Of a stretch of DNA of 64,000 nucleotides, positions 6,498-63,211 are shown piece by piece. Under the pieces are notes generated by a model, which was given only the letters and a program-made list of their open reading frames with translations, ran no database searches and was not told where the DNA came from. The stretch comes from Xanthobacter sp. NM-59 (GTDB taxonomy: Bacteria; Pseudomonadota; Alphaproteobacteria; Rhizobiales; Xanthobacteraceae), in NCBI RefSeq assembly GCF_021401125.1, contig NZ_JACBFQ010000003.1, positions 186,001-250,000 of the forward strand. The letters are read 5' to 3'. Position numbers and translations under genes: made by a program. Position 1 is the first letter of the stretch. Every line of letters begins with the position of its first letter.

Positions 6498-7541
6498 CTA
6501 CCCCTCATCCTCGAACAAAGGCAAGTTCGCGGGGTTTTCCGCCTCCCGCTTGGGCTCCGGCAGGCCGAGATGGCGGAACGCGATGGCGGTCAGCATGCGC
6601 CCGCGCGGAGTACGCTGGATGAAGCCCTGCTGCACCAGATAGGGCTCCACGATCTCCTCGATGGCGTCGCGCGGCTCGGAAAGGGCCGCCGCCAGGGTAT
6701 CCACGCCCACCGGACCGCCGCCATAATATTCCGCGATCACCGTGAGATAGCGCCGGTCCATGGCATCAAGGCCAGCGCTGTCCACCTCCAGGGCAGACAA
6801 AGCACGGTCCGCGATCTTTCGGTCGATGGCCTTGGCCTCCGCCACCAGCGCGAAATCCCGCACCCGGCGCAACAGGCGCCCGGCGATGCGGGGCGTGCCG
6901 CGGGCGCGGCGGGCGATCTCGGTGGCGCCGTCGGGCACGATGGCGATGCCCAGCACCTTGGCTCCGCGCACCACGATCTTTTCCAGCTCTTCCACCGTGT
7001 AGAACTGAAGCCGGATGGGAATACCGAATCGGTCGCGCAGCGGCGTGGTGAGCAGGCCCGAGCGCGTGGTGGCGCCCACCAGAGTGAATTTCGGCAGCGA
7101 GATCTTCACCGAGCGGGCCGCCGGCCCCTCGCCAATGACGAGGTCCAGCTCATAATCCTCCATGGCGGGGTAGAGGATTTCCTCCACCGCCGGGGCGAGC
7201 CGGTGGATCTCGTCGATGAAGAGCACGTCGCGCTCTTCCAGGTTGGTGAGAATGGCGGCGAGGTCGCCCGCCTTGGCGATCACCGGGCCGGAGGTGGAGC
7301 GGAAGCCCACCCCCATTTCCCGCGACATGATCTGCGCCAGCGTGGTCTTGCCCAGGCCCGGCGGGCCCACGAACAGCACATGGTCCAGCGCCTCGCCGCG
7401 GGCGCGGGCGGCCTTGATGAAGATGTCGAGATTGGCGCGCGCCTGGGCCTGCCCCACGAACTCGCCCAGCATCTGGGGGCGCAGGTGGAGCTCGGCGTCG
7501 TCTTCGCGCTTTTCGCCTGAAACGAGGCGGCGAGTGTTCAT
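6498..7541 (-). CDS. ruvB: RuvB, Holliday-junction branch-migration ATPase
   Basis: 347 residues from ATG 7541 ([14 protein letters not shown]), the usual RuvB start; the upstream in-frame extension is not conserved. It has an AAA+ domain with Walker [13 protein letters not shown], Walker [12 protein letters not shown] and sensor motif [12 protein letters not shown], followed by a lid and a winged-helix DNA-binding domain ([16 protein letters not shown] near the C-terminus). Hexameric RuvB drives branch migration with RuvA during recombinational repair. It follows ruvA after a 120-base spacer containing overlapping palindromes. Confidence 0.98.
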
Positions 7542-7591
7542 ATGGAATGCCTGTGGCACGGACGGCCGGAGGCCCCGTGGATCGCGCTGCA

Positions 7592-7614
7592 TCACCCTGG
7601 GGTGAAATCACCCC
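7592..7614. repeat. Overlapping palindromes in the ruvA-ruvB spacer
   Basis: Three half-sites TCACCC, GGGTGA and TCACCCC follow each other within 23 bases. The middle one can pair with either neighbour: TCACCC-TG-GGGTGA at 7592-7605, or GGGGTGA-AA-TCACCCC at 7599-7614. It could be an operator or alternative mRNA hairpins before ruvB. It does not resemble the alphaproteobacterial LexA box (GTTC-N7-GTTC). The function is unknown. Confidence 0.4.
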
Positions 7615-7661
7615 GAAAGTGCCATGACGGGGGCCGATCGCCAAACAGCGGCCCTAAGTCC

Positions 7662-8279
7662 TTATTTCGCCAGCTCCTTGAGGCCCAGGCGAATCAGCTT
7701 TTCGGTGGTGGCGTCCTCGCCCGCCTCGCGCATGGCGGCGGCGATGGCGCCATGGGCCTGGGGCGGGCCATAGCCCAGATTGACCAGGGCCGAAATGGCG
7801 TCCGCCACCGCACCACCCTCTGCGGCCACCACGCTCTCGCCACCAAGCGAGGGCAGGCCGAGATCCGACGACAGGCCACCGGGCACCTTGTCCTTCAGCT
7901 CGGTCACGATGCGCGTGGCCACCCGCGGGCCCACGCCCTGGGCGCGGGCGATCATGGTCTTGTCGGCCAGCGTCACCGCCTGGGCGAGCTCGCTGGGGCG
8001 CAAGGTGGAGAGCACCGCCAGGGCAATCTTGGTGCCGATGCCCTGCACCGTCAGCAGCAGGCGGAACCAGTCCCGCTCCGCCTCCGAGCCGAAGCCGTAA
8101 AGGCGGATCATGTCCTCACGCACATGGGTCTCGATGACGAGGCTGGTCGCCTCTCCCATGCGCGGCAGGTCGCGCAGGGTGCGGGCGGAGCAGTGCACCA
8201 GATAGCCGACACCGTGCACATCGAGGATGAGGTGATCCTCGGCCACGGTGTCCACCACGCCCTTAAGCTTGCCGATCAT
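7662..8279 (-). CDS. ruvA: RuvA, Holliday-junction DNA-binding subunit
   Basis: 205 residues starting [20 protein letters not shown], the conserved OB-fold start of RuvA. Helix-hairpin-helix motifs follow ([16 protein letters not shown] and [19 protein letters not shown]). The C-terminal domain III ([20 protein letters not shown]) contacts RuvB. It tetramerises on Holliday junctions and recruits RuvB. It lies between a DUF1772 gene and ruvB; ruvC is separated from it by the DUF1772 gene, so ruvCAB is interrupted here. Confidence 0.97.
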
Positions 8280-8362
8280 TCAAATTCCCCAGCTCGCCGA
8301 CCGGCCGTGGCCAATGGCGGCGCGCGCCTTCCCGCTCTCCTGCCCGCACCCGCGCGGCCGCC

Positions 8363-8794
8363 TCACGGGATCGCGGCGCACAGAAAGACGAAGCTCGCCA
8401 CCGCGCCGAGGCCGGTGCGCACCATGTGCAGCTGCCCCCAATTGGCCATCAGCCGCAGCGTGTCCTCGCCCGCTTCCCCCTCTTTCGTGGAGATGAGGCG
8501 CCGGTTGGTGGGCATGATGCCGATGAAGGTATAGGGCCAGTTGGCCAGCAGCAGCACCCCGCCCGCCAGCCACTGCCAGTTGCCGGTCATCCAGAACGCG
8601 CCGGCGCCGAGCACGAAGCCCAGCAGCGAAAGGCTCGCCTGCATGGCCGCGCCGCGCCGATAGGCCGGCTTCCATTCGCCCAGCGCCGCCGGTGCGGCAA
8701 GGCGCAGCCGTGCCGGCTGCTCCGCCACGTTGATATAGAGCGCCGCCCCGGTGAACAGGGCCGCCACCAGAAGCGCCAGATGCCCCACGATCAT
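8363..8794 (-). CDS. DUF1772-type four-helix membrane protein
   Basis: 143 residues from ATG 8794 (MIVGHLALLVAALFTGAALY). Four predicted membrane helices are separated by short loops. The pattern NVAEQPARL after helix 1 and the conserved NWPYTFIGIMPTNRRLISTK between helices 3 and 4 are those of the DUF1772 (anthrone-oxygenase-like) family of small membrane proteins. No biochemical role is established for the bacterial members. It lies between ruvC and ruvA in the same direction. An upstream extension of 40 Arg-rich residues to 8914 is rejected because it is not membrane-protein-like. Confidence 0.8.
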   Translation of the reverse strand: MIVGHLALLVAALFTGAALYINVAEQPARLRLAAPAALGEWKPAYRRGAAMQASLSLLGFVLGAGAFWMTGNWQWLAGGVLLLANWPYTFIGIMPTNRRLISTKEGEAGEDTLRLMANWGQLHMVRTGLGAVASFVFLCAAIP

Positions 8795-8950
8795 CCGCCG
8801 GTCCCCCACCCCCGCCAGGCGCCGCCGGCCTGGAGCCTGTCCCCGCCGCGCGGCGGCTCGGACACGCCCTCGATCGCTCGCCCGAGCATGGCGCTCGAAA
8901 ACGCCCCGGAGCATGCGCCCGCCCCGCGAGATCAGCGGAATGCCCCAGCC

Positions 8951-9010
8951 TGTTGAGTTGACACGTTTTTCTCACGCGCGCCGGAATCCACTTCGCTCGA
9001 AAGCGCCCTA
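8951..9010 (+). repeat. Dispersed intergenic repeat, copy A
   Basis: About 60 bases running TGTTGAGTTGACACG, then TTTTTCTCACGCGCGCCGG, then AATCCACTTCGCTCGAAAGC. Recognisably related sequence occurs at 26384-26445 and 41791-41848 in the same written orientation. The right end reaches the ruvC stop codon (CTA at 9008 on this strand). No coding capacity is evident. Confidence 0.6.
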
Positions 9011-9541
9011 GAGCACATTCAGCGCGCGGGCCGCGGCGCCGCGATGATGGGCGTGGGTGACCGCGATCGCAAGGGCATCGGCGGCATCCTCGCTCTTCGG
9101 CGCGGCCTGGGGCAGCAGGATGGTGATCATCATGCGGATCTGCGCCTTCTCGGCCCGGCCCGCGCCCACCACGCTCTTCTTCACCAGAGTGGGGGCGTAT
9201 TCCGCCACGCTCAGCCCCTTGAGGGCGGGGGCCAGCAGCACCACGCCGCGTGCCTGGCCCAGCTTCAGGGTGGAGGACGGGTTCATGTTGACGAAGGTCT
9301 CCTCCACCGCCGCCTCATCGGGCTCATAGCGGTCGAGAACGGCCATCAGCCCGTGGTGCAGCTCGGCGAGACGATCGCCCATCGGGGCGTCTTCAGGCGG
9401 CAGGATGGCGCCGCAGTCCACATAGCGCAGGCGCGGCCCATCCGCCTCGATCACCCCCCAGCCGGTCCGGCGCAGGCCGGGGTCCAGGCCGAGGATGCGC
9501 ACGGCGTGGTTGGGACGAATCGGGGTTACGGTCATGGACAT
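9008..9541 (-). CDS. ruvC: RuvC, Holliday-junction resolvase
   Basis: 177 residues from ATG 9541 (alternative ATG 9535). The RNase H-like fold carries the four acidic catalytic positions in context: [14 protein letters not shown] near the N-terminus, [12 protein letters not shown] in the middle, and [14 protein letters not shown] near the C-terminus. It cuts Holliday junctions delivered by RuvAB. It is transcribed toward the DUF1772 gene and ruvA. No LexA-type operator was found in the short upstream spacer, so SOS control is not supported by the sequence. Confidence 0.97.
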
Positions 9542-17646: not shown

Positions 17647-17675
17647 CCGCGCGTGCCGCAATTTTTGAGGGGCTC

Positions 17676-19667
17676 ATGTCGAACCGCACCCGCCACGATC
17701 GTATGGCCAACGCCATCCGGTTCCTGTCCATCGACGCCGTGGAAGCCGCCAATAGCGGGCATCCGGGGCTGCCCATGGGTGCGGCGGACATTGCGACGGT
17801 GCTGTTCAGCCGCGTTCTGAGGTTCGACCCGACCGCGCCGCGCTGGGCCGACCGCGACCGCTTCGTGCTCTCCGCCGGCCACGGCTCCATGCTCCTGTAT
17901 TCGGTGCTGCACCTCACGGGCTACAAGCAGCTGACCATTGACGAGCTCAAGCGCTTCCGCCAGCTGGGCTCGCTGACGCCCGGCCATCCGGAAAACTTCG
18001 TCACCGAGGGCATCGAGACCACCACCGGCCCCCTGGGTCAGGGCATCGCCACCGCCGTGGGCATGGCCATCGCCGAAAAGGCGCTCGCCGCCCGCTTCGG
18101 CTCCGATCTCGTGGACCACCGCACCTATGTGCTGTGCTCGGACGGCGACCTCATGGAGGGCATCAGCCAGGAGGCGGCGGACCTTGCCGGCCACCTGAAG
18201 CTCTCCAAGCTGACGGTGCTGTGGGACGACAACCGCATCTCCATCGACGGCCCCACCTCCATTTCCACCTCCACCAACCAGCTGGCGCGCTTCGCCGCCT
18301 CCGGCTGGGCCACCGCCGAGGTGGACGGGCACGACCCGGAGGCCATCTTCGCGGCGGTCGAGGCGGCCAAGGCCTCCGACAAGCCCACCTTCATCGCCTG
18401 CCGCACCACCATCGGCTTCGGCTCGCCCAAGAAGGCGGGCTCCGAGAAGGTGCACGGCTCGCCGCTGGGCAAGGACGAGGTGGCCGCCACCCGCGCCGCG
18501 CTCGGCTGGGAGGCCGGCCCGTTCGAGGTGCCGCAGGACGTCGCCGCCGACTGGCGCGCCGCCGGCGCCCGGGGCCAGGCGGATCGCGCGGCCTGGGAAG
18601 CGCGGCTCGCCGCCGCCCCCGCCGAGCTGCGCGCCGAATTCGAGCGCCGTATCTCCGATACCCTGCCGGCGGGCTTCAAGGCCGCGGTGGTGGACGCCAA
18701 GGCCAAGGCGGTCGCGGCCGGCGGCGCCGTCGCCACCCGCAAGTCGTCCGAGGCGGTGCTCGACACCCTGGTGCCGGTGGTGCCGGAGCTGTTGGGCGGC
18801 TCGGCCGACCTCACCGGCTCCAACAACACCAAGGCGAAGAGCGCCAAGTCGATCACCCCTGACGACTTCTCCGGCTCCTTCATGCACTGGGGCGTGCGCG
18901 AGCACGGCATGGCCGCGGCCATGAATGGTATCGCGCTGCACAAGGGCCTTGTGCCCTTCTCCGGCGGCTTCATGGTGTTCTCGGACTATTGCCGTCCGGC
19001 CATCCGCCTTGCCGCCCTCATGGGCGAGCGGGTGATCCATGTGCTCACGCACGATTCGATCGGCCTCGGCGAGGACGGCCCCACCCACCAGCCGGTGGAG
19101 CATCTGGCCGCCCTGCGCGCCATCCCGAACCTTACCGTGCTGCGCCCCGCCGACACGGTGGAAACGGCGGAAGCCTGGCAGATCGCCATTGAGAACACGG
19201 AGGGCCCTTCCGCCCTCATCCTGACGCGCCAGAACCTGCCTCTGCTGCGGGCCGACGCCACGGAAGAGAACAAGAGCGCCGCCGGCGCCTATGAGATCAG
19301 CCCCGCGAGCGGGCCGGCCAAGGTGTCGCTGTTCGCCACCGGCTCGGAAGTCTCGCTGGCGGTGGACGCTCAGAAGATTCTGGAGGCCCAGGGTGTCGCC
19401 ACCCGCGTGGTCTCCGTGCCCTCATTCGAACTTTTCCTCGCGAAGTCCGCCGCAGAGCGGGCGAAGGTGATCGGGGAAGCGCCCGTGAAGGTGGCGGTGG
19501 AAGCCGCCATCCGCATGGGATGGGACGAAATCGTCGGTTCGGATGCCGCCTTCGTGGGAATGACCTCATTCGGCGCCAGCGCGCCAGCAAAGGATCTCTT
19601 CGCCCATTTCGGAATCACTGCGGAGAAGGTGGCCGAGGCCGCCCTGGAAAAGCTCCGGCAGGCCTGA
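17676..19667 (+). CDS. tkt: Transketolase
   Basis: 663 residues, start ATG 17676 after GAGGGG. Thiamine-diphosphate enzyme motifs are complete: [38 protein letters not shown], the cofactor loop [19 protein letters not shown] with [10 protein letters not shown], and the C-terminal catalytic Glu region [13 protein letters not shown]. It moves two-carbon units between sugar phosphates in the pentose phosphate and Calvin cycles. It is the first gene of tkt-gap-pgk with its own promoter upstream; gap follows after 102 bases. A CbbT role in carbon fixation is possible but cannot be told from sequence. Confidence 0.97.
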
Positions 19668-59538: not shown

Positions 59539-60045
59539 GTGGACGCGCGCCGCACAGGCCCCCGCGAAGCGGCGGGACCAGACCCGGAGAGGCAAGCGGG
59601 CGAGGCCGGCTTCACCCTGCTGGAGGTGGTGTGCGCGCTCATCATCGTGGCGGCCCTGGCCGCGCTCGCTCTGCCGCGCATTCCCCTTGGAACCTCGCGT
59701 CCGCGGCTGGAGGCCCTGGCGGTGGAAGCAGCCGCGGTGCTGAAGGCCGATCGCTCCGCCGCCATGCGCCAGGGCCGCCGCGTTGCGACCCTGGTGGACG
59801 CCCCGGATGGCCGCCTGCGCTCCGGTTCCACCGGCCGCCTGCTACGCCTGCCCACCGATGTGCATATTGAGGCGCTTCTGCCCCGCCGGTGCGGCGGGCA
59901 GGAGGTTGAGGCGCGGATCGAGTTCTTTCCCAGCGGCATGTCCTGCGGCGGCGTGGTCACGCTGTCCCGCGGCGGCACCAGCTTCGAGGTCCGCGTGAAC
60001 TGGTTGACGGGAGGGGTGGAGATTGTCCCGCGCCACGCCTCCTGA
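59539..60045 (+). CDS. gspH: GspH, minor pseudopilin
   Basis: 168 residues, apparently from GTG 59539. An N-terminal extension of about 22 residues precedes the class III signal GEAGFTLLEVVCALIIVAAL, with Glu at +5. The mature domain is short (LRLPTDVHIEALLPRRCGGQ, GVVTLSRGGTSFEVRVNWLT) and fits GspH, which caps the pseudopilus complex. A 75-base gap separates it from gspG; a 220-base gap follows before gspI. Confidence 0.9.
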   Translation: MDARRTGPREAAGPDPERQAGEAGFTLLEVVCALIIVAALAALALPRIPLGTSRPRLEALAVEAAAVLKADRSAAMRQGRRVATLVDAPDGRLRSGSTGRLLRLPTDVHIEALLPRRCGGQEVEARIEFFPSGMSCGGVVTLSRGGTSFEVRVNWLTGGVEIVPRHAS

Positions 60046-60265
60046 CAGGCCCGCAGACGCCCGACGTGCCCCCCCGTCGGCGCCGCGCATGCGCGCGGAC
60101 CCCGCCACGCCCGGGCCATGCACCCCCGCCAGCCGCGCGCCCACCGGGCCCGGCCATGCGATCACGCCCGCCCTACAATCCCCGAGTGCGGCAGCGGGTG
60201 GGCCAGGAGCCTGGAACGCGTGTGGGAGCCAGCCTTTGTCTCGACCGGAAGCGAAGGGTCGGGCC

Positions 60266-60715
60266 ATGGCCGCACGCGACGGCGGGCAGGCGGGCTTCAC
60301 CCTGGTGGAAGTGCTGGTGGCGCTGGCGGTCACGGCGGCAGTGATCACCGCCATCGGCCTGCTGATCGGGAGCAACGCCCGCGCCACCCGGGCACTGGAG
60401 CGCCACGCCGCCTTGATGGCCGCCGCCCAGGCGGTGGAAGCGGGCATTCCCCCCCGCGCCCGGCTCCGTGACGGGCGCATCGAAGGCGCCGTGGCGGGCC
60501 ACGCCTGGCGCATGGATGTGAGCCCGATGGATGTGGGCGCGATCCCCGACGACGCATCCTGGCTGCCGCGCCATGTGCGCATCCGCGTCACCGGCCCCGG
60601 CGGCGACGCCGTCGAGATCGAAACCGTGCGCCTCGTGCCCACCGGCGCCGCGGATACGGCGGAGGGGGATGCCGCCGACGACGCCACACCGAGCCCGGCG
60701 GATGGCGCGCAATGA
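60266..60715 (+). CDS. gspI: GspI, minor pseudopilin
   Basis: 149 residues from ATG 60266 (MAARDGGQAGFTLVEVLVAL), preceded by GAAGCGAAGG. The class III signal has Gly at -1 and Glu at +5. The mature part (SNARATRALERHAALMAAAQ, VEIETVRLVPTG) is the expected size for GspI. The stop overlaps the first ATG of the repeat array (ATGA). The 3' end, with TPSPADGAQ, has been copied into that array. The 220-base spacer before this gene holds no gene. Confidence 0.92.
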   Translation: MAARDGGQAGFTLVEVLVALAVTAAVITAIGLLIGSNARATRALERHAALMAAAQAVEAGIPPRARLRDGRIEGAVAGHAWRMDVSPMDVGAIPDDASWLPRHVRIRVTGPGGDAVEIETVRLVPTGAADTAEGDAADDATPSPADGAQ

Positions 60716-61641
60716 CCCCTCCCACGCACCAACCCGCCGGCTTCACCCTGTTGGCAAGGCGCATCGCCCCGGTGCGCGCTGCGTGGGTGATATCGGGCCT
60801 GCCCGCCCTGCCGGCACGGTGGCTACCCATCGGGAAACAAGACGACGGCGGAAGGGGAGACCAACGCCGCGCCCAGCGCACCGGATGGCGCGCGATGATC
60901 GGTCCCGCCCACCGTCCCGCCGGCTTCACCCCGGTGGCACGGCGCATCGCCCCCGTGCGCGCTGCGTGGGTGATATCGGGCCTGCCCGCCCTGCCGGCAC
61001 GGTGGCTACCCATCGGGAAACGAGGCAGCGGCAGGCGCCGCCACGTCCAGGACAGCGGATGGCGCACAAGGACTGGCCCCGCGCACCAGCCCACCGGCGG
61101 CACCCCAATGGAAAGGCGCGTCGCCCCGGTGCCCGCCGTGCGGATGATAGCGCGGGTGATATCAGGCCTGTCCGTCCCGGCGGCGCGCTGGCTGCTCATC
61201 GGGGAACAAGGCGACGGCGGAAAGATTGGCCGACGACGCCCAACCCGCCACGCCGAATGGCGCTCAATGATCGGTCCCCCGCATCAGCCCGTCGGCCCCA
61301 CCCCAGTCAAAATGCGCGTTGCCCTGGTGCGTGCCGCGGGGCCGGTATCGGAGCTGTTCACCCTAACTGCGGGGCGGCTGCCCAACTGGAAACCACGCGA
61401 CGGCGGAGGCAGCGGCGGACGACGCCACGCCCGCCGCACCGGATGGCGCTCTATGATCTGCCACTCCCTCCGGCCCGCCAGCTTCGCTGCGGTGGAACGG
61501 CGCCTCGCCACGGTGCGCGCCGCGCGGGCGGAGTCGGGCCACTCCCTCCTAACGGCGCAGGGGCTGCCCAACTGGAAACAGGGCGACGGCGGAGAAATTG
61601 GTGGATGCCGCCACGCCGCCGCAACGGGTGGTGCGCAATGA
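60712..61641 (+). repeat. Five diverged tandem copies of the gspI-gspJ junction forming a 309-codon frame
   Basis: The start of gspJ plus the end of gspI is repeated as units beginning at 60712, 60895, 61069, 61267 and 61453 (steps 183, 174, 198 and 186, all multiples of three, then 185 to gspJ). Each unit carries a copy of the gspJ N-terminus: MTPPTHQPAGFTLLARR, MIGPAHRPAGFTPVARR and so on, ending LPIGK or LPNWK like gspJ LPNWK. Each then has a stretch resembling the gspI end (GATGGCGCxC then ATGA). The copies lost Glu at +5 and gained Arg in the hydrophobic core, so they cannot act as pseudopilin signals. The frame ends in ATGA at gspJ. It is probably a decaying duplication array; expression is unknown. 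Confidence 0.85.
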
Positions 61642-62330
61642 CCCGTCCCGCGCACCACTCTGCCGGCTTCACCCTGGTGGAAATGCTGGTTGCCCTGGTG
61701 CTCGCGGCGCTGGTGGTGTCGGGCCTGTCCGTTCTGACGGCGCAATGGCTGCCCAACTGGAAGCGCGGCATCGAGCGGGTGGATAATGCGGAGCGGGTTG
61801 CCCTCGCCTTGCGCCGCATCTCGGCCGACATCGGCGCGGCCACCTTCGTGCCCGCCACGACGGAACGCCCGCGCCCGCTGTTCGCGGGCGGTCCCTCCGC
61901 CGTCACCTTTGTGCGCACGGCGCTGGGGCCCAATGCACGGCTGGGCCTCGAAATCGTCCGCCTCGCTGCCGAGGGCGGCGGGCTGACGCGCAGCACCGCG
62001 CCCTACGTGCCCCGCGCCGCCGGCGATGCCGCGCCACGGTTCGGCGCGCCCGTGCAGCTGTTGCGGGCGCCCTACCAGATCGACTTTTCCTATTCCGGGG
62101 AGGACGGATTGTGGCGCGGCTCCTGGTCCGATGTCGACCAGCTGCCGCGCGCCGTGCGCATCGTGGTGCGCGATGGGCGCACGGGCCGGCCGCTGAACGT
62201 GTCCACCGTCGCGGAACTGCATGTGGAAGCGCCGGCCTCCTGCCTCAGCAGCGCCATGCTGCCGATCTGCAACGGCTCCGGCACCTCGGACTTCGGCCCG
62301 GCCCCACCGGCGGAGGGACAGGCGCCGTGA
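61638..62330 (+). CDS. gspJ: GspJ, minor pseudopilin
   Basis: 230 residues from ATG 61638 (MTRPAHHSAGFTLVEMLVAL). The class III signal is intact with Glu at +5 and a hydrophobic helix (VLAALVVSGLSVLTAQ). The mature part includes VDNAERVALALRRISADIGA and YQIDFSYSGEDGLWRGSWSD, with a Cys pair near the C-terminus (ASCLSSAMLPICNG). It is coupled to the upstream repeat frame (ATGA) and downstream gspK (GTGA). An N-terminally extended frame runs upstream to 60531 but is Arg-rich and not credible. Confidence 0.94.
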   Translation: MTRPAHHSAGFTLVEMLVALVLAALVVSGLSVLTAQWLPNWKRGIERVDNAERVALALRRISADIGAATFVPATTERPRPLFAGGPSAVTFVRTALGPNARLGLEIVRLAAEGGGLTRSTAPYVPRAAGDAAPRFGAPVQLLRAPYQIDFSYSGEDGLWRGSWSDVDQLPRAVRIVVRDGRTGRPLNVSTVAELHVEAPASCLSSAMLPICNGSGTSDFGPAPPAEGQAP

Positions 62331-63211
62331 CACGCCCTGCCCGCATCCTTCGAGCGCACGGACAGGATGGCTTCATCCTCGTCGCCGTCCTCTGGATTCT
62401 GGTGGCCCTCGCCACCTTTGCCGGCGCCTATGCGGCCTATGTCTCCGCCACCGCGCGCAACGCGTCGGCGCTGCAGGAGGAGGCCGCCGCCCGCCCCCTG
62501 GCGCGTGCGGCGCTGGAGCTCACCGCCTTCCAGCTGCTGGCCCAGCCGGCGACCGCGCGGCCGGCGAGCGGCAGCTTCTCCTTTCGCATGGGCAAGGCGC
62601 GGGTCGCCGTGAGCTATGTGGAGGAAACCGCGCGCATCGACCTCAATGTCGCCCCGCTGGAGCTGTTGGCCGGCCTGTTCACCGCCCTCGGCGCCGACCC
62701 GAAGGCCGCCGAGGCCGATGCGCGCCACGTCGTCGCGTGGCGATCGAGCGACCCGGAGGAATCCCCCCCGTCGGAAGCCGCCCTCTATCGCGAAGCCCAG
62801 CTCGGCTATGAACCGCGCGGCGCGCCTTTCGTGCATGTGGACGAGCTGTGGCTGATTCCCGGCCTGCCGGCGGAGCTGGTGGCGGCGGCGCTGCCCCACG
62901 TCACCGTTTTCAGCGGCCAGGCGCAGGTGAACGCCGCCATCGCCGGCCCGGTGGCGCAGGCCGCCGCCGACTTCGCCCGGGCCGGGGACAAGACGGACGA
63001 ACCGCAGCAAGACCCCGGCCGCTCCGACGCTGTCAGGGTGACAATCCGCGCGGATTTCGATAGCGGACGACAGCGGACCATCGAAGCGGTGATCCTGCTC
63101 CGCGTGGCCGGCGACGTGCCCTATCGCGTGCTGGCCTGGGACGAGGACGCGCCGGGGCCTGCACACGGGCGCTTGTCGGCGGAGCCTGGGGGATTGGAGA
63201 GCGGGCAATGA
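62327..63211 (+). CDS. gspK: GspK, tip pseudopilin
   Basis: 294 residues from GTG 62327, overlapping the gspJ stop. The class III signal GQDGFILVAVLWILVALATF lacks Glu at +5, as is usual in GspK. The mature protein has TARIDLNVAPLELLAGLFTA and the helical insert PFVHVDELWLIPGLPAELVA, typical of the GspK alpha domain. It caps the pseudopilus with GspI and GspJ. gspL follows with an ATGA overlap. Confidence 0.95.
   Translation: MTRPARILRAHGQDGFILVAVLWILVALATFAGAYAAYVSATARNASALQEEAAARPLARAALELTAFQLLAQPATARPASGSFSFRMGKARVAVSYVEETARIDLNVAPLELLAGLFTALGADPKAAEADARHVVAWRSSDPEESPPSEAALYREAQLGYEPRGAPFVHVDELWLIPGLPAELVAAALPHVTVFSGQAQVNAAIAGPVAQAAADFARAGDKTDEPQQDPGRSDAVRVTIRADFDSGRQRTIEAVILLRVAGDVPYRVLAWDEDAPGPAHGRLSAEPGGLESGQ

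Follow-up and report, generated by a model that had tools for sequence, protein, structure and literature searches.

Partial tandem gene duplication followed by decay occurs in bacteria, and leaves part of a locus repeated head to tail, in copies that are without coding constraint and are lineage-specific. The array described here differs from ordinary duplications of this kind in that its unit spans a gene junction, and in that five decayed extra copies are open and in phase. The source genes of the unit, which encode GspI and GspJ, minor pseudopilins of type II secretion, are intact beside the array.

Two further systems are relevant to the locus. According to a report on six gene pairs (PMC10666635), reinitiation drops steeply with distance, and is almost nil at about 20 nt. 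A second report (PMC12548453) describes that Rho loads on untranslated RNA, that short ORFs can hand ribosomes to the next gene, and that ORFs of mycobacterial interspersed repetitive units (MIRUs; Supply et al. 1997, as cited there) couple with -4 spacing at gene starts, MIRUs being dispersed and apparently mobile. The locus resembles termination-reinitiation coupling in having the 4-nt overlap position between the two genes in most of the relatives examined, and the array keeps one such overlap at each end; what sets it apart from coupling at short overlaps is the 926-nt decayed array between the genes and the proposed relay frame.

The closest known kind of element is the MIRU, which also consists of short repeated units at a gene start, carries an ORF coupled with -4 spacing, and is thought to be a cheap insert for expression. 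A MIRU-like -4 spacing is present here, where the stop of the array frame overlaps the gspJ start at the ATGA of 61638-61641. Unlike MIRUs, the units of the array were copied from two flanking genes, have strong matches at one locus and are decayed. Since it is not a dispersed family, the array is not a MIRU, although by analogy it may work like a MIRU located at a gene start. Among the titles and abstract openings listed from the open-access literature we found no precedent for a decayed gspI-gspJ junction array or for a self-derived translational bridge. On balance we lean, with some reserve, towards the view that the array is a self-derived tandem duplication, which was free to decay and has been held open as a translational bridge from gspI to gspJ.

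Architecture of the array and its operon

All positions refer to the window, by which we mean the whole stretch of 64,000 nt of Xanthobacter sp. NM-59 DNA that was analysed. The operon was assigned to type II secretion from Pfam scores, which were above the cut-off for GspD, E, F, G and K and just below it for GspH (19.8 vs 21 bits), and from NCBIfam scores, which were above the cut-off for GspD and GspG. The genes gspI (60254-60715, + strand) and gspJ (61638-62330, + strand) both match Pfam N_methyl. They were named by their position in the operon and by their relatives; their NCBIfam scores were below the cut-off (30.3 bits vs 44.35 with TIGR01707 for gspI; likewise below for gspJ). The first lies between gspH and gspJ and has an orthologue with 69% amino acid identity in the closest relative (G013), and the relatives of the second show 45-70% identity within the family. 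The following gene, gspK (62327-63211, + strand), overlaps the end of gspJ by 4 nt, and is recognised by Pfam T2SSK_1st above the cut-off and by NCBIfam T2SS_GspK below it. The spacer between gspH and gspI (60046-60253, about 208 nt) is poorly conserved relative to the corresponding G013 spacer, with a best match of 74 nt at 72%.

Intact gspI and intact gspJ are separated by five tandem units of 183, 174, 198, 186 and 185 nt (60712-61637), which make up an insert of 926 nt. By reading, each unit is a gspJ start of about 127 nt followed by a gspI end of about 59 nt, the sources being the first ~127 nt of gspJ and the last ~59 nt of gspI (60653-60711). A 169-nt reference recovered six in-register copies with 60-87% identity to it and start-to-start distances equal to the five unit lengths; the sixth copy is the functional junction of the gspI end and the gspJ start. 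Self-comparison of 60656-61762 gave a match far above chance (E = 1e-133), thus the likeness of the units to the gspI end and the gspJ start stands above background. TRF recovered part of the array (60681-61106) with a score of 462, the highest of the 17 rows in the window. The five-unit junction array proposed in the initial annotation is confirmed by these three results.

All five units are on the + strand. Unit 1 (60712-60894, 183 nt) and unit 2 (60895-61068, 174 nt) begin with ATGA and are 3 and 12 nt shorter, respectively, than the inferred ancestral length of 186 nt. Unit 3 (61069-61266, 198 nt) has a 12-nt insertion at 61138-61149 and has AGG in place of ATG, so that the gspJ-like start codon ascribed to every unit is present in the other four only. 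Unit 4 (61267-61452, 186 nt), the deepest array branch in the tree described below, and unit 5 (61453-61637, 185 nt), which has a 1-nt deletion near 61615, both start with ATGA, and the alignment bears out that both have retained LPNWK. As had been noticed, units 1 and 2 are the closest pair (86% identity over the aligned unit and 91% over the gspJ-like part), whereas the mutual difference among units 1-5 ranges from 14 to 33% over the aligned unit. Other details of the initial annotation held for some of the units. Lengths that are multiples of three are found in units 1-4, but not in the last one. Glu at +5 was lost from units 1 and 2 (Ala) and unit 4 (Lys), but is retained in units 3 and 5, and agreement with the motif MxxPxHxxAGFT is best in units 1 and 2, that of units 3-5 being only loose.

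The 309-codon ORF (ORF309, 60712-61641, + strand) is present and open through all five units, as originally described. It starts within the ATGA at 60712-60715, which also contains the TGA stop of gspI, and it stops within the ATGA of gspJ (61638-61641), thus there is a 4-nt overlap at both ends. It is the 1-nt deletion in unit 5 that makes the array frame land on the TGA inside this second ATGA. A second open frame of 599 codons (60531-62330, + strand), which is in register with gspJ, also passes through the array; its use would lengthen GspJ considerably at the N-terminus.

Origin of the units and their occurrence in relatives

The history of the units was reconstructed as a tree from 102 nt of the heads of all six copies, the sixth being this genome's gspJ, together with 16 sequences of relatives. 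Units 1-5 grouped with this genome's own gspJ, after the G013 branch (UFBoot/SH-aLRT 98/88), and with one another (100/97), a topology that shows descent from the resident gspJ and not from an acquired element. The branching order was unit 4, unit 5, unit 3 and then units 1 and 2 together, with the unit 5 and unit 3 forks being weaker (93/76 and 93/85). The stem common to all five units has a length of 0.13, which points to decay of the first copy ahead of its amplification. The units have even root-to-tip lengths (0.34-0.36). At fourfold sites 535 of 1572 positions differ between this genome and G013 (0.34; corrected 0.53, or about 0.27 per lineage). As the root-to-tip lengths exceed this per-lineage value, which weighs against the reading that we favour, the array is either very old, dating from near the G013 split, or it drifts faster than fourfold sites.

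At the level of sequence, it is well supported that the array is a self-derived, lineage-specific tandem duplication of the gspI-gspJ junction, and a re-amplification from an already decayed copy is probable. A junction segment of about 186 nt was tandemly duplicated after the split from the nearest sampled species, and we infer that the decayed copy was then re-amplified to yield the five extra units.

The distribution of the array among relatives agrees with such a history. A gspJ match was present in 19 of the 61 genomes searched (own genome, which is one of the 19, and 60 relatives). None of the other 13 genomes of the genus was seen to carry the array; a gspJ relative exists in 11 of them, the two without a gspJ match being G007 and G010. 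DNA matches were obtained in nine of these 13 and corresponded to the real junction or gspJ start, to the prepilin motif or to short stretches; four gave no DNA match at E 0.001. G013, whose gspJ product is 72% identical in amino acid sequence, has an ordinary gspI/gspJ overlap in ATGA. The option of a decaying duplication, one of three considered in the initial annotation, is thus supported by the tree, by the non-detection in relatives and by the flat codon-position pattern described below. In G011, another member of the genus, there are two gspG-to-gspJ regions (L011 and L028), in which the starts of gspG and gspI are identical over the protein stretch compared and the gspJ genes differ.

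TRF, run with a period of at least 40 near the junction and liable to miss arrays with copies less than ~70% alike, detected no comparable array at 92 other pseudopilin-pair loci. Near-junction repeats occurred at two of the 93 loci, this one and L090; the latter repeat (84 nt x 1.9) was rejected as a similar array since its motif is, by reading, unrelated. The 93 loci comprise our own, 22 others from the genome searches and 70 from genome contigs, the last set including distant pilin pairs. A DNA search of the own genome gave strong unit matches at the array locus only, the next best having an E of 0.001 over 36 nt, and the plasmids searched contained no array match. With no strong match elsewhere in the genome and none in plasmids, a dispersed or mobile repeat was rejected. 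In viral contigs one stretch fitted a peptide pattern, and none was confirmed.

Loss of constraint, the open frame and alternative explanations

The 78 parsimony changes in the array heads are distributed evenly over the three codon positions (27/27/24, chi-square p 0.89), whereas on the branches of G013, the two G011 copies and own gspJ 28 of 48 changes fall at third positions (Fisher p 0.003 vs the array). This even distribution indicates that no peptide has been kept, with no hint in any frame of retention for its amino acids, and the loss of amino acid constraint in the units is well supported. The numbers of AT-to-GC and of GC-to-AT changes that the array has undergone correspond to an equilibrium of about 69% GC, the window's own value. 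The units would be drifting near the base composition of the genome without amino acid constraint, and the functional gspJ that follows the last unit stays constrained. Unlike GspI and GspJ, the units are not pseudopilins: ORF309 gave no N_methyl match, Arg, which the initial annotation had noticed in the former hydrophobic segment, is present in each of the five units where a pseudopilin has its hydrophobic helix, and the Glu of the GFxxxE motif is left in units 3 and 5 only. Selection against a hydrophobic helix (Leu to Arg) was considered and rejected: T was lost at 0.46 at second codon positions, which is no special loss beside the values for first (0.36) and third (0.90, from 2 sites) positions.

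How could a decayed insert be tolerated between these two genes? The 4-nt gspI/gspJ overlap of the relatives is an arrangement that would couple translation. Of the 93 loci examined, nine lacked a motif pair and one is our own; in 70 of the remaining 83 the overlap position is occupied by an in-frame start codon (ATG, GTG or TTG), which may or may not be the one that is used. The genes were located by regular expression, and L039, L069, L071 and L091, which are probably mis-paired, were counted as lacking the overlap. As this position is so widely conserved, a long untranslated gap should cost expression. Coupling should fail across an untranslated insert of 926 nt, and Rho would gain access to the operon RNA. 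The array most likely escapes this through its uninterrupted frame: ribosomes finishing gspI would restart on it and then pass to gspJ. Selection, if any, would act on the openness of the frame and on the two overlaps, not on the peptide. We infer both translation of the frame and selection for its openness, and propose ORF309 as a translational bridge on account of the open frame, the simulations described below and the missing family matches. Taken alone, the bridging role is suggestive, judged from sequence features; against it, the start that some relatives actually use may lie outside the 4-nt overlap. The earlier idea of a spacer that tunes gspJ translation survives only in this form, as an open-frame bridge with 4-nt overlaps at both ends, for which the statistics are modest.

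The best-surviving alternative is that the same partial duplication left neutral debris, that the frame is open by chance in GC-rich DNA, that translation of gspJ begins at an initiation site of its own, and that the array is under no selection. We take this to be a real possibility, if a tentative one. The absence of codon-position constraint agrees with it, and so does the presence in the same genome of other decayed gene-end copies without evident role. In dinucleotide shuffles of the array, which ignore the repeats, the frame was open in 1.4%. When neutral substitutions were simulated along the unit tree without indels, it stayed open in 5.5% of the runs started from the unit ancestor and in 8.4% of those started from gspJ, hence openness alone is weak evidence. 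The frame in gspJ register is open too, for which the neutral expectation is 23-31%, and both frames were open in 1.6-1.7%; the bridge needs only the array frame and does not explain the other, which counts against it.

Neutral debris accounts less well for the exact architecture. With a mean of 4 random indels added to the neutral simulation, a frame that was open and ended in gspJ's ATGA was obtained in 0.5-0.8% (3000 runs x four settings), and 3.0-4.2% of the same simulations gave a bridge of any kind, by fusion, by overlap or by a stop no more than 30 nt away; it should be noted that these openness tests were chosen post hoc, and that the substitution matrix, the branch lengths and the number of indels were taken from the array itself. 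Three of the four indels inferred from the unit alignment are multiples of three and keep the frame, and the cost expected of an untranslated gap, given the conserved overlap position, also speaks against debris.

The initial annotation had also considered a new repeat protein, i.e. a 309-residue Arg-rich product with a function of its own. The open ORF with overlaps on both sides would suit such a gene, as would the weak residual pattern of GC by codon position (0.73/0.66/0.78), but this pattern is much flatter than in gspI, gspJ and gspK, and the changes are spread evenly over codon positions. There was no Pfam, NCBIfam or PDB-sequence match to ORF309, and the 309-residue frame had matches in four of the sampled 198 family genomes, namely in our own, in G013 at the real junction (E 4e-5) and in two others, weakly (E 3e-4 and 7e-4). 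We consider a functional repeat protein very improbable.

The chance that the repeats form a cis-acting RNA or DNA element, such as a structured leader, a promoter or an attenuator, appears similarly slight. RNAalifold did propose a structure with six pairs changed on both sides, which was reached by 26 of 500 shuffles, and the covariation score was reached by none of 500 column shuffles, a result that serves as a control and is not a probability. The covariation term of the consensus was, however, unfavourable (+2), the alignment that was scored had also served to derive the structure, and none of the units, taken singly, folds better than its dinucleotide shuffles (z +0.3 to +1.4). There is no terminator-like site in 60000-62400, and the sole promoter-like site and the sole Rfam match (E 0.2, below gathering) both lie outside the array.

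An assembly artefact, conceivable with tandem repeats in a 36-contig assembly, can practically be discounted, because the units differ by too much (14-33%) for read-level confusion and the array is internal to a 422-kb contig; identical collapsed copies are possible, therefore the copy number may be a minimum.

Tandem gene-end copies elsewhere in the genome

Copies of gene ends are not confined to the gspI-gspJ locus. Self-comparison of 800 kb outside the window (40 stretches) yielded 17 near direct repeats, of which nine were noncoding according to a simple gene caller. One of these, on L147 (14132-15833, G000:C30), is an array with a period of about 66 nt, which, from the translations of its repeats, looks like a CRISPR array; dropping it left eight. 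The same scan found two noncoding repeats in 556 kb of G013, none in 400 kb of G012 and one in 400 kb of G001. The difference, eight in 800 kb vs three in 1356 kb, has a one-sided p of 0.018, or of 0.036 without L141, which appears as two related coding stretches missed by the gene caller. The surroundings of four of the eight were inspected: L141, L142, L151 and the groEL repeat on L237.

On L151 (6977-7443, G000:C33), the interval between recJ (7444-9264, minus strand), identified by Pfam RecJ_OB, and a DUF1275 gene contains a decayed tandem array of about three copies of the 3' end of recJ. No such copies were found in any of the other 13 genus genomes, in each of which the match was confined to the genuine recJ end. 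The copies are spaced at about 183, 167 and 118 nt, and two of these distances are not multiples of three; the copies are in mixed frames and contain stops. The recJ array is a natural contrast to the gspI-gspJ array: it is not in frame, and it does not lie between overlapping genes.

The groEL (Cpn60) gene (17650-19281, minus strand) is accompanied by a 91-nt tandem copy of its 3' end and downstream DNA (L237 17481-17672, G000:C11) with 99% identity, and by reading there is a GC-rich near-match of about 10 nt at the breakpoints. In view of this high identity the duplication process looks recent as well as old. A tandem copy of about 210 nt (72%) is found at the 3' end of a gene on L142 (14409-14839, G000:C22), where the G013 interval is about 200 nt shorter. 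An ORF at L142 14774-15631, thought by eye to be DnaJ-like, gave nothing with Pfam at 1e-5, and this assignment was dropped. Further noncoding near direct repeats, 73-99% identical, are located in this genome (G000) at L229 7633-8061 and 16587-16903, L231 1772-2242 and L236 2904-3144.

It is conceivable, although we would not call it probable, that the gspI-gspJ array is a translational relay whose peptide is irrelevant and at the same time one case of a lineage-wide tandem copying of gene ends, in which most copies decay and those between coupled genes persist as open bridges. The array itself is real, lineage-specific and decayed, it is not a protein gene of the usual kind, and it is possibly a translational bridge.

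Because a single genome contains tandem gene-end copies that differ in age, it can be measured how often such duplications arise and what becomes of them. A real bridge would separate selection for being translated from selection on the encoded product, and would provide a natural test of the constraint that operon coupling places on DNA inserted between genes. It would also mean that a long ORF may have a plausible start and stop without being a protein gene in any sense, which would be a trap for annotation and for claims of new genes.
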